From contig FMBT01000319.1 in the NCBI GenBank assembly GCA_900095095.1, positions 248,001-312,000 of the forward strand: a stretch of DNA of 64,000 nucleotides, read 5' to 3'. The notes under the pieces were generated by a model, which worked only from the letters and a program-made list of their open reading frames with translations, had not been told where the DNA came from and did not search any database. The DNA is from Fragilariopsis cylindrus CCMP1102 (Eukaryota > Bacillariophyta > Bacillariophyceae > Bacillariales > Bacillariaceae). The position numbers and the translations under genes were made by a program. Below, piece by piece: positions 16,697 to 22,459 of this stretch. Every line of letters starts with the position of its first letter. Positions within the stretch are counted from its first letter, which is position 1.

Positions 16697-17182
16697 ATAT
16701 GCTTATTTTGACATATATATATACATATTATATATATAGGCCTATATGTATATATTGTATATGCTCCTTCAAATTGCATGATTGCTATGCTATATCAATA
16801 GTATAAATAACAGTGAAGTCATAGAGTGGATTGATTCATTCGCTTTTTTAGTTAGATTTGCGAAATATTAAAATCATCCAACTTTTATAATGAACACACA
16901 GATCAACAATTCCTGTCTACAGTACAGTAACGAAGATCTATATACAGTACACACTTGAACTTACAATGTGACTTGTTTTGAATATTAATGGGGGTGGCGT
17001 GGTGACCCTCCCCCAAATTGACAAGCATAAACTTGCTGTTAAAATAATTTCTGATGATGGGTCATCCATAAAAGTTATCCATCTCTAATCTGCCGACGAC
17101 AGATTCACAATGTTGAAAAAGGTTAGAAATTGTTGAATTAGAAGCAACAACCCATTAGCAAAGACAAAAAAGTGAAATCATT
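16697..17182. other. Intergenic, 3' and 5' untranslated sequence
   Basis: Contains a TA-rich simple repeat at about 16709-16760 (tatatatacatatta type) that forms an AT palindrome, then AT-rich sequence leading to the next gene on the same strand. No gene seen. Confidence 0.4.
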
Positions 17183-18037
17183 ATGATACTCCCTACTCCT
17201 GAAAACCCTCGAATCATCGCTCTATTTGACGTCGATGGAACATTAACGATTCCCCGTGGGGAAGTGAAGGCAGATATGATGGATTTGTTAAAGAAATTAC
17301 GAACAAAAATCACAGTCGGTATTGTTGGTGGATCAGATTTGCCAAAGCAGGAAGAGCAACTCGGTCAGGGTATCGTGAACGAGGTTGTTTGGAACTTTAG
17401 TCAGAATGGATTGGTTGCATATAACAATGGGGACCTACTAGAATCGAACTCAATTTCGAAGTTCTTAGGAGAAGATAATATCAAACGCATTGTCAATTGG
17501 GTCATGAAGTACCTAGCCGATTTGGATCTTCCTATCAAGAGAGGAACATTCATCGAATTCCGGAGTGGTATGCTCAATATTTCACCAATTGGTCGTAACT
17601 GCTCCCGAGAGGAACGAAATGATTACGAAAAATTTGATCTGAAAAATAATATTCGAAAGAACATGGTCGAGGCCATGAGGAAGGAATTTTCAGACATTGA
17701 TATGACGTACAGGTAAGTACGACAGAAGTTACAAAAGTTGGTCAACATGAACTAGATATAGATAGATAGATCTTACCCAATCATACTCTTCTTTCTTTTT
17801 TTCCGACATCTTAGCATCGGTGGACAAATCAGTTTCGATTGCTTCCCCACAGGCTGGGACAAGACGTATTGCTTGCAGTACTTGAAGGAGAGTGACTTTG
17901 ATGAGATTCATTTCTTTGGAGATAAGACATTCGAGGGTGGAAATGATTATGAAATTTTTACTAGTGAAAGAACTATTGGACATACTGTAACATCACCTGA
18001 AGACACTATTGGAAAACTCGAGAAGCTATTTTTCTAA
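17183..18037 (+). CDS. PMM: Phosphomannomutase
   Basis: Interconverts mannose-6-phosphate and mannose-1-phosphate, the supply step for GDP-mannose used in N-glycosylation and mannan synthesis; cytosolic in other eukaryotes. Two exons, 17183-17712 and 17815-18037, with a 102-nt intron (AG|GTAAGT to TTAG|C) that restores one frame of 250 residues, close to the human PMM2 length of 246. The HAD catalytic motif FDVDGTLT is at residues ~15-22, where the first Asp is the nucleophile. Further family marks are [55 protein letters not shown] and [17 protein letters not shown]. All are intact. No signal or transit peptide is seen. Confidence 0.95.
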
Positions 18038-18353: not shown

Positions 18354-21300
18354 TCATCCCCTCTTTGAGAGACATGCATTGCATTTTCTTTTTGATTTAG
18401 GATTCTCCATCGTGCACATTGAACAAATCCAGCAGTCGGTTGCCATATTTGGAGACGAATCGACAGGTAAGGCTTCAACAATATCTTCGTCGATGGGAGA
18501 ATCGATAATCATGGCCTCCGGTGTGTCAGCTTCCGAGGATTCCGAGGAGTTGTCGTCTGATGATGACGATGATGGTGTACACACTTCGATTTCGGATTCG
18601 GCGACGGGAGAATTAGAATCATCACCGTCGGGATCATCAGTTTTTGGATCGTTCTGAATATCAACTTTCACTTGGTCTTCTTCTTCCGACTTACCAATAT
18701 CTATATCTTTGACTTCGTCGTCCTTCTCGTTGTCGTCGTCGTCGTCGTCCTCTTCTTCTAGTCCTTCTAGTTCTTTAAGCTCAAGAAGCGCCTTCTTCTC
18801 TTCTTCTTCTTTCTCTCTTTCCTGCAAAAGACCCCATGTTACCTCAAGGGCAAATACAAAACTGACAGAATCGTAACCACGCATTGCAGCTCGAAAGATC
18901 GGATCATCGACTGTATCTGTGTTGTGATGATGGCTCCAGTTGCGCATGTGCTCCTCGTCAGGCATTCCAATCTGCTCTTGGTAGTCATCTCCTCGTTCGT
19001 TATTGAGATGAGAACATGCTTTCATTATATCATCCGAATGCTCTTCGTCTGAATCATCTTCTGATTTTTCAGGATCGGACTTCATTGTCATCAAAATCGG
19101 GACCAGTTCGTGCCATTCTGTTGTCCACCAACTAAGAAGTCGCCCAGCGGCATCCGCAATAGGATCCTCATCTGGAGACCAAATTTTCATGACATTGGAA
19201 AAGATTCGATTGACATCTTTTGATACATTAGAGACACTTTTGTAGGCCTGGGTGAGAACTCCCTTTCCTTCTTGAGAAGGAAGAAGAGATAGACGTTTTT
19301 GGATAGTACCAAGGTCCATAGGCTGCTTGACCTTGTTCTCGTATTGTTGTTTGCTCACGTCGTGGTCCTGAGGATTGAGTGGATTTAAAAAGTATTGCGC
19401 ATCCTCTTGTTTCAACATTTTTTCCACCAATTCAAGGCAAGCAGCAAGTTTTTTAGGTAGAATCTTCGTCTCTTGCATCTCGGCGTCGTCTTTGATGATT
19501 TTACACCGCTCACATTTGAGTTTGTCATGTGTATCACTTGGTGTTCCAGATCTTAATTTAAAAAGATTCTTCAAATCTTTAGTACTCAAGGAATTGACTT
19601 GTTCCTTGTCATCGACGACCGATTGTAAGCCTTCCTTTGAGAGCTGTTTTATCAGTTAATGCAGCAAAGATTTAAAATTGTTTTAAGTGAGTTGAAATTC
19701 TGTGGAAAGTTTTACCAACCAAATTTTTATATAGAATGTGAAATTGTTAGAACTTAATAAAAAAGTATTTACCTGGCGTTGAAAGATTTTTTCTTCCACC
19801 GTACCCGTGGCTAAGAAACGATAAGTAAAGCATCGTTTCTTCTGTCCGTCTCGCCAGCAACGAGCGGCTGCCTGTTTATCTACAGCGGGGTTCCTGATTT
19901 TGTTAATTAATCAAGGCAAAACTTTTGTGAGATGGCGTTCGATGTGTGCAGATCCAAGGCAGTAGAGAGTAGATGATACCATTTTTTTTGAAATAAATGT
20001 CGATAGACAAATCTTACCAGTCGGGATCAAACAAAACTAATCGATTCCCTCCAATTAAATTTATTCCGCAACCACCAGCTTTCGACGACAACAAAAATGC
20101 GACTAAAGAACTAGTCGGATCGTTGAATTCATCGACCATTTTTTGTCGCTTTTTCATCGTCACCGAACCATCGAGTCGACAAAATCCCCATGAATTTTCT
20201 CCACACATACGACCAATCAAATCCAATGTCTGGGTGTAGTTTGAAATGATGACAATTTTATCACCGCCGTTACCAGGTTTTCGCATCTCCTTTATAAGCC
20301 GATACAGAACAAACATTTTCCCACTCCATTCGGGATGAACGGGTCCTCCATTCCGACCACCACCACCACTAGAAAATGGTAAAAACTTACTGACGCCATC
20401 TGCTCCAGGAGCAGCCGCAGAGTTACTCTCGTCTCCGTCGGTATATTTGACTTCTTTCATAGCGGCTCTTCGTTTATTATTACCCGATTGCCGTTTTTGC
20501 CCATGGGTATCGTCGTATTCGGCCACCAGCGACGGATGATTGCATAATTTCATGAGCATCTGAATCGACCCTAATGAGTTTACTTGCTTTCCGTCCATGA
20601 CGTGTTGCATGTCCTTGCTTGTCACCAAATGAGAGTACATGTTCTGTTGAATTTCGGTGAGGTTACAACAGACAACTTGTACCAGCTTAGGTGGTAAGTG
20701 CTCGGCGTTGAGGGTATTGATACGTCGTAATATAAATTCATTCACAGTGGTCGACATGTCGTTTTGGATCTCATTCATACGTTGCTTTTGTCGTGGAGAT
20801 GCGTCTGGTTCGCGACCACGAAGAATGGGGCCGAGTATGTTTCTATTGAATTCCTCTTGTGTTCCTAAAACACCTCTGTTGGTAAAATTTACCATAGCAA
20901 AGAATTCCTTCAAATTGTTCTGCATCGGAGTACCTGTGGGTGGGTGGGGTGGGGGGAGGAGGGAAGGGGAGAGATAGAGTTTCTCTTTGGTGAGATGATC
21001 GATCGAACGAAAGAAAAAGACAAGGAGATGATTTTTAAAAGCAACATCAAACGATACTTACCAGTGAGCAAGACCCTTCGTCGAACTGGTATTGAATCGA
21101 GGGCGCGAGATGTCTGATTATCACTGTTCTTGAGTCTATGAGCTTCGTCACATATAAGCAAATCACAACAATTCTCGTACTTTGTTAAACGTTTCACGTG
21201 CGTTCTTAAACACTCGTAGCTGCAGATTAGTATCTGAAAGATTGACGTCTTAGCGAATGTTTCTAGATCCTTTTCAGTCTTTTTTCGATCCGATTCAGCC

Positions 21301-22459
21301 AGAGCAAGTGTCTTTACACCACCGGGACCTAGCCACTTGACGAACTCGTTATCCCAATTCTTGACGAGCGAACATGGACAAACAACAACAATACGCTTCG
21401 CGGTGGGTCGTTTATCTGCTGTAATTCCTGTCTTGAGGAGAGTATAGATTAAGCAGACGGATTGTAGCGTTTTGCCCAAACCCATATCGTCAGCAAGAAT
21501 GACACCCTGTCCACTGAAATCCTTTAAACCCATAACGCATTGATATATAAAATTCACACCTTCCCGTTGATGTGGTCGTAACCATTTCGCAAGAATAGGA
21601 GGAACGAACACATTGTGTTTACTATATCGTTCTTTTGGGGCAGGTTTTAGGACGGTCACATCTTCTTCCACTCCATATTCATCCGTTTGCAACTCCGTTA
21701 CTCTTTAAAAATTAAAAATAGATTGAAATTGCAGTGTAAGATATAAGATGGTGTAGGATAATGTTCACGCAAAAATATAAATATCATCGGACGAAATAAA
21801 ATCGAATGAATCGTATAAATAATCATATAGTAGATAGATCCTACTTACAGAGTGGGTTGTATTCCCTTAGCTTCTCCACCCTGGAAAGGACTTTCCCACA
21901 CCATCATAGGTTCGAAGGGACGATCATCCTCTTTTTTATTACCATCATCGTCGTCGTCAGATGATTCATCGGTATCGCCCGCCTCTCGATTTCTTCGTTT
22001 GCCGACAAAAGTAAGGCCCTTCCCCGCTCGACTCAACAATCGTTGCATTCCTCCTGAGCTTCTTTTCGCTCCCAACGATGATCGTTTCAATAAATCATCT
22101 TCCTTGCCTTTGTAAGCTCGACGTCCCACCTGCGGTCGTTGGAATTTTCTCAGTAGTCCTGCCGAACCGATTGGGACGTTTAATCCACACATTACAGGTG
22201 CACGCTGAACGGTTCCAACACCACCACCTCCTCTTCGTTTACCTAAGGTTGCAATTGGGCGACGAATGTTATTACTACAATAGTTTTCGTTGTGTTCATT
22301 CGTGATAGTTATAGAAGATCCGACCAATGGTCGACTTACACTTCGTCCAAGTGGACGTTTTTTAGAGAACATAGTGCCAACACCGACGCTGCCCCCAAGT
22401 CGACGCCCGTCCGGACCGAAGGATGATGATATCGTCTTGCGCCTTTTCCCCTTCAACAT
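18354..22459 (-). CDS. RAD54: RAD54 recombination translocase with bromodomain-like region and RanBP2 zinc finger
   Basis: Five exons: 22459-21849, 21702-21062, 20933-20018, 19893-19773 and 19643-18354, all with GT-AG introns; total 1,193 codons in one frame. SNF2 motifs in order: ADDMGLGKT (ATP loop; Asp where Glu is usual), [24 protein letters not shown] (split by an intron), [35 protein letters not shown]. The RAD54-specific [16 protein letters not shown] and [11 protein letters not shown] follow, so it is RAD54 rather than another SNF2 protein; it would remodel DNA with Rad51 in homologous recombination. Unusually, about 300 more residues follow: a bromodomain-like segment ([13 protein letters not shown], then [13 protein letters not shown]), a very acidic linker, and a final C-x2-C-x10-C-x2-C finger ([21 protein letters not shown]) of RanBP2 type. 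The N-terminus is basic. No frame break. Confidence 0.93.

Follow-up and report, generated by a model that had tools for sequence, protein, structure and literature searches.

RAD54, a motor protein of recombination, is widely conserved. In the diatom Fragilariopsis cylindrus CCMP1102, the predicted RAD54 protein carries a bromodomain that, as judged from the sequence, sits inside the RAD54 C-terminal domain and is not appended behind RAD54. The motor, the split C-terminal domain, the bromodomain, a Trp in place of the Asn that anchors acetyl-lysine, and a C4 zinc finger signature can all be read from the predicted protein. Taken together, they describe a putative translocase to which several candidate docking elements have been added.

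Gene model and RAD54 identity

The gene is located on the minus strand of the window, i.e., the whole stretch of 64,000 nucleotides that was analysed (C293:248001-312000). A five-exon model between positions 22459 and 18354 gives a joined frame of 1192 amino acids with a single terminal stop. All four introns have GT/AG ends and are 124-146 bases in size; the one alternative acceptor that was tried for intron 1 broke the frame. Exon 1 (21849..22459, minus strand as all exons) encodes a basic N-terminal region (39 K/R versus 19 D/E among residues 1-185) that lacks a Pfam match. Exon 2 (21062..21702) contains the first part of the SNF2 motor, based on Pfam SNF2-rel_dom and the alignment with zebrafish Rad54 (PDB 1z3i), and exon 3 (20018..20933) comprises the remainder of lobe 1 and most of lobe 2, matched by Pfam SNF2-rel_dom and Helicase_C. 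The end of lobe 2 (... FQRQ) is encoded by the short exon 4 (19773..19893), both joins of which are crossed by the 1z3i alignment. The join of exon 4 to exon 5 (19773/19643) is in phase 0 and is spanned by the alignment with zebrafish Rad54. Exon 5 (18354..19643), with 1290 bases comprising 429 open codons and a stop, accommodates the split RAD54 C-terminal domain, the bromodomain, an acidic tail and a zinc finger.

When the motor was compared across PDB chains, zebrafish Rad54 scored 508.4 bits versus 258.6 bits for the next match, ERCC6. By this best-match comparison, the gene encodes a RAD54 of the SNF2 family. An earlier note on this DNA had proposed both the RAD54 identity and one clean frame through the last exon, and the two proposals agree with the scores and the exon structure given here.

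Searches of the organism's own genome covered 67.9 Mb on 818 contigs. With exon 3 as the query, the gene itself was found at 100% identity; the next-best match, on contig C262, was 30% identical, and a match of similar score was present on C679. In the C262 gene, the exon with lobe 2 best matches ERCC6; a distant second Rad54-like gene might be among the other SNF2 matches of this search. Exon 5 gave a single match in the genome, and a second copy of the gene was, thus, rejected. Many genes are doubled at equal score on contig pairs (e.g., C262/C679, C182/C349 and C51/C139), a pattern resembling that of an assembly whose haplotypes were left unmerged; for exon 5 of RAD54, no such doubling was seen. 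The genome also contains 27 silicon-transporter matches, two of them exceeding 750 bits, which points to a diatom. Some silicifying algae other than diatoms also carry silicon transporters.

In tail-to-tail orientation relative to RAD54, the plus strand of the window bears a phosphomannomutase exon (17159-17716; PF03332, 196 bits) and a second frame (17762-18037) which is probably the last exon of the phosphomannomutase gene and ends approximately 0.3 kb from the RAD54 stop.

The RAD54 protein was also scanned for PIP and APIM motifs. The scan gave no APIM match; the sole PIP-like match is QNNLKEFF at residues 422-429, encoded in exon 3. Matched by eye, this motif is probably the equivalent of the PIP-like motif III extension that the accessible part of PMC3864901 describes for Rad54 and is, therefore, not peculiar to this protein.

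A bromodomain nested in the RAD54 C-terminal domain

The first half of the RAD54 C-terminal domain (residues 764-810; 19503..19643, minus strand) aligns to 1z3i as far as SDTHDRFRCRRC and closes with CERC (807-810), the counterpart of Rad54 CRRC. With the whole protein as the query, the Rad54 alignment stops at residue 810, opposite 1z3i SDTHDRFRCRRC. An insert of 187 amino acids follows (residues 811-997; 18942..19502, minus strand), versus 20 in 1z3i. The rest of the domain, NWSHHH...DPIFRAA...SVSFVF (residues 998-1027; 18852..18941, minus strand), was placed by 1z3i alignment and Smith-Waterman comparison and is located C-terminal to the bromodomain. Hence, the features of the Rad54 C-terminal domain (SDTHD, CxxC, W..H, SFVF) are all present, split by the insert.

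Several comparisons bear on the second half of the domain. Upon removal of residues 823-980 from a query of residues 700-1045, one alignment ran through both halves (150.7 bits, E 3.6e-43) and reached residue 635 of 644 in 1z3i. Residues 981-1060 scored 47 against the 1z3i tail in the Smith-Waterman comparison, with a mean of 20.2 and a maximum of 45 for the shuffled sequences, so that none of 2000 shuffles attained 47; this score was reached in 8 of 2000 cases when all 382 residues after CERC (811-1192) were shuffled. Compared with the same tail, neither the stretch with the bromodomain nor the final 132 residues of the protein scored above their own shuffles. MAFFT applied to the full stretch misplaced part of the second half.

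Because RAD54 C-terminal sequence resumes beyond the bromodomain, the arrangement is a nested insertion together with a further C-terminal extension. The earlier note had placed the bromodomain in an extension behind a finished RAD54, a description that has to be given up since the C-terminal domain resumes at residues 998-1027. A plain C-terminal fusion of RAD54 and a bromodomain, without nesting, would fit with the bromodomain coming behind the ATPase and with the second half of the domain, used as the sole query, finding no 1z3i match at E up to 10; given the RAD54-like sequence beyond the bromodomain, seen in the joined query and against the shuffles, we consider such a fusion very improbable. 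Even less credit can be given to an artefact of gene modelling or assembly that merged two genes: the split domain, the bromodomain, the tail and the finger are all contained within one unbroken 1290-base exon, on a contig 424 kb in length, and the bromodomain is flanked by RAD54 sequence on both sides.

The C-terminal domain of Rad54 presumably contains a zinc site. Such a site was not found in the literature searched, and the word "zinc" is absent from the accessible part of PMC3864901.

At the level of sequence comparison, the bromodomain of exon 5 is genuine. It spans residues 832-928 (19149..19439, minus strand) and is matched by Pfam PF00439 with 52.2 bits (E 6e-14) in exon 5 and 51.1 bits in the whole protein, the cut-off being 21.7. 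The core of a bromodomain had already been recognized in the last exon by the earlier note. Among solved structures, the BET bromodomains are closest to the insert in sequence (BRDT 2wp1, E 2.7e-5). Among the bromodomains of the own genome, the match with the best E-value shares 27% identity across 136 positions, followed by one of 28% over 95; with higher identity occurring only over shorter stretches, a recent copy of a resident bromodomain is unsupported. For residues 812-985 of the insert, a single-sequence AlphaFold prediction, made without relatives, gave a mean pLDDT of 41.9 and a pTM of 0.25, values too low for the model to bear on the fold or the pocket.

In four of the five segments of exon 5 (the two C-terminal halves, the bromodomain and the acidic tail), the true frame was preferred by a score of codon usage for which 29 long open frames at loci of the own genome served as the training set. 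The fifth segment, the finger, gave a higher score in another frame (0.21 versus 0.07), which has little weight at a length of 32 residues. The coding signal of the insert (0.32) is similar to that of its flanks (0.31 and 0.23). An intron in place of the insert was rejected because the insert has an open, coding-like frame and attains a bromodomain score, the real introns of this gene being only 124-146 bases in size.

The altered pocket, the acidic tail and the zinc finger

Acetyl-lysine is anchored in bromodomains by an Asn of the final loop (accessible part of PMC5977933). The last loop shows the pattern N-[AC]-x-x-[YF]-N in most bromodomain rows of the own genome; the RAD54 bromodomain has N-V-M-K-I-W at equal spacing, by which Trp918 (codon 19179..19181, minus strand) is aligned with the position of the anchoring Asn. 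The residue ahead of Trp918 is Ile, where an aromatic residue is usual. Likewise, the WPF shelf lacks its Trp-Pro, which few rows of the own genome keep. The PMDLGT motif is preserved, followed by an 11-column insertion after its helix. Also kept is a Tyr which we take to be equivalent to BRD4 Tyr97.

The own-genome comparison is based on 43 bromodomain matches, including that in RAD54. Four of these (L059, L074, L076 and L077) were excluded as cut or garbled, apparently by introns, and the remaining 39 correspond to 30 distinct rows, RAD54 included. At the anchor position, Asn is found in 24 rows, His in two, and Tyr, Thr and Ala in one each; Trp occurs once, exclusively in RAD54. L052 and L068, both of them Asn rows, are apparently copies of one gene. 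Of the 61 human bromodomains covered in the accessible part of PMC5977933, 48 possess the Asn, with Tyr, Thr or Asp in the other 13. A canonical acetyl-lysine reader is, on account of the predicted Trp918, doubtful. The earlier note had spoken of an acetyl-lysine reader; what stands of this is a real bromodomain, and the reader function is weakened by the exchange of the anchoring Asn.

Among the other bromodomain loci of this genome, L079 (G000:C490:31000-40000) displays successive frames with an HMG box, a bromodomain, a PHD finger (23.9 bits versus a cut-off of 24), a chromodomain and an SNF2 start, and, further on, SNF2/helicase lobes and two additional bromodomains; identical bromodomain rows are present on C134. 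Read as separate frames, L079 is apparently a single large remodeller of CHD type whose combination of domains is unusual. A dense cluster at G000:C288:18976-22619 contains six bromodomain matches in approximately 3.7 kb, including the distinct rows L060 (His) and L064 (Tyr), which are devoid of the usual Asn.

Downstream of the resumed C-terminal domain, the protein continues into an acidic tail (residues 1037-1160; 18453..18824, minus strand), in which 50 of the 124 residues are D/E and 10 are K/R. It is followed by a C4 zinc finger of the RanBP2/NZF type (residues 1168-1187; 18372..18431, minus strand). Both the acidic stretch and a four-Cys finger of RanBP2 type had been predicted in the earlier note and are recovered here. 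The finger exactly fits the pattern W-x-C-x2-C-x3-N-x6-C-x2-C, which we take to be the RanBP2/NZF signature and which did not occur in any of 20000 shuffled versions of the exon 5 protein. In the profile search that the earlier note had suggested for both modules, the bromodomain exceeded its cut-off and the finger remained under it (Pfam Zn_ribbon_RanBP, PF00641: 15.5 bits in exon 5 and 10.7 bits in the whole protein versus a cut-off of 27). Against the PDB, the finger gave 38 matches at E up to 10 (best E 0.0018), of which 36 are to Nup153, RanBP2, TRABID/ZRANB1, RNF31, Mdm2/Mdm4, RBM5/RBM10 and RYBP/YAF2, and two to eL40; the best-scoring fingers are those of Nup153.

The NZF of ZRANB3 is described in the accessible part of PMC12841045 as an anchoring point for K63-ubiquitinated PCNA, and the same text reports that the exchanges W625A and N634A abolish, and T631A reduces, the binding of K63-polyUb PCNA. 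Of five ZRANB3 positions at which exchanges diminish or eliminate binding, the finger of the diatom RAD54, counted by offset from the Trp, keeps three (W625, T631 and N634), with Met at the position of Y632 and Ala at that of M643. Ubiquitin binding by this finger is uncertain because of these two exchanges and because Nup153 fingers score best.

Known systems and proposed function

The diatom protein shares with zebrafish Rad54 (1z3i) the motor lobes and the C-terminal domain with SDTHD-CxxC and W..H...SFVF. It differs in the insert, where the 20 residues of the zebrafish protein face 187 with a bromodomain, and in the acidic tail and finger, to which 1z3i has no aligned counterpart. BET bromodomains (BRDT, BRD2, BRD3 and BRD4) are the nearest solved sequence relatives and have the PMDLGT motif in common with the insert; in contrast to them, the insert has Trp for Asn, a changed WPF shelf and a longer loop. 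Replacement of the anchoring Asn links it to atypical bromodomains such as PHIP(2), although the human examples in the accessible part of PMC5977933 have Tyr, Thr or Asp instead of Trp, and the RAD54 host sets the diatom module further apart. The combination of an SNF2 motor and a bromodomain in one polypeptide is also found in an own-genome remodeller of BRM/SNF2 type (L080, the name being inferred from its domains); there, however, the bromodomain comes behind SnAC, close to where the frame ends, and has kept its Asn (row L047). An NZF/RanBP2-type finger is, likewise, carried by ZRANB3, a repair translocase of the SNF2 family. Unlike the diatom protein, ZRANB3 possesses an HNH nuclease and PCNA-binding motifs, and a bromodomain is absent from the six domains listed for it in the accessible part of PMC12841045.

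Beyond this genome, 361 pattern-matching stretches from viral contigs included no relative of the exon 5 protein, nor did 38 stretches when the alignment with 1z3i was used. With the same alignment, 147 stretches from prokaryote genome contigs yielded two loci, both in bacterial MAGs. The search of exon 5 against phages gave nothing at E up to 1. Among the titles and abstract starts listed from the open-licence PMC literature, no report of a RAD54-bromodomain protein was found; rad54 is among the genes named in work on sexual reproduction induced by ammonium in the diatom Thalassiosira pseudonana (accessible part of PMC5501676).

We consider it fairly probable that the gene encodes a RAD54 translocase in which a nested, pocket-altered bromodomain, an acidic tail and an NZF-like finger serve as tethers to proteins or chromatin. 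By orthology, the motor would act as a DNA translocase working with RAD51 in homologous recombination. The bromodomain-type module, inserted in a loop of the CxxC...W..H domain just behind motor lobe 2, might dock onto chromatin or a partner and thereby tether or orient RAD54, presumably by a route other than the classical Asn-anchored binding of acetyl-lysine. The acidic tail could contact histones or mask basic surfaces, and the finger may recruit the motor to a modified partner, e.g., a ubiquitinated protein, by analogy with ZRANB3.

Three other readings of the insert have to be weighed against these proposed tethers. A more far-reaching and rather unlikely one is that diatoms have rebuilt RAD54, with a ligand on the nested non-canonical bromodomain gating the motor allosterically and the NZF-type finger reading ubiquitin. 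Alternatively, the insertion could be decayed or neutral, a spacer without a ligand that is tolerated in a surface loop; this would explain the changed pocket residues and the divergence from all bromodomains compared. Against such a spacer, which we regard as unlikely, stand the open frame and the coding-like codon usage, and the Pfam score is still 52 bits, hence, the signature of the bromodomain fold persists despite divergence. Finally, a canonical reader would bind acetylated histones and steer RAD54 to acetylated chromatin at breaks. It draws on the Pfam score far over the cut-off, on PMDLGT and the kept Tyr, presumed equivalent to BRD4 Tyr97, and on the five other distinct rows of the own genome that also lack the Asn; furthermore, RSC bromodomains bind H3K14-acetylated histones (accessible part of PMC3781322). 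However, 24 of the 29 other distinct rows keep the Asn that is Trp in RAD54, the aromatic residue ahead of it has become Ile, the WPF Trp-Pro, itself kept in few own-genome rows, is missing, and the 11-column insertion follows the PMDLGT helix, so that this function appears quite improbable.

The presence of a chromatin-type module, with clear boundaries, inside the RAD54 C-terminal domain indicates that a loop of this domain accommodates, or makes use of, a docking module. The insert adds a Trp-type member to the atypical bromodomains, a pocket variant beyond the Tyr, Thr or Asp of the human proteins covered in the accessible part of PMC5977933. If the gating reading were true, RAD54 itself would contain a switch responding to chromatin or to a non-acetyl ligand.
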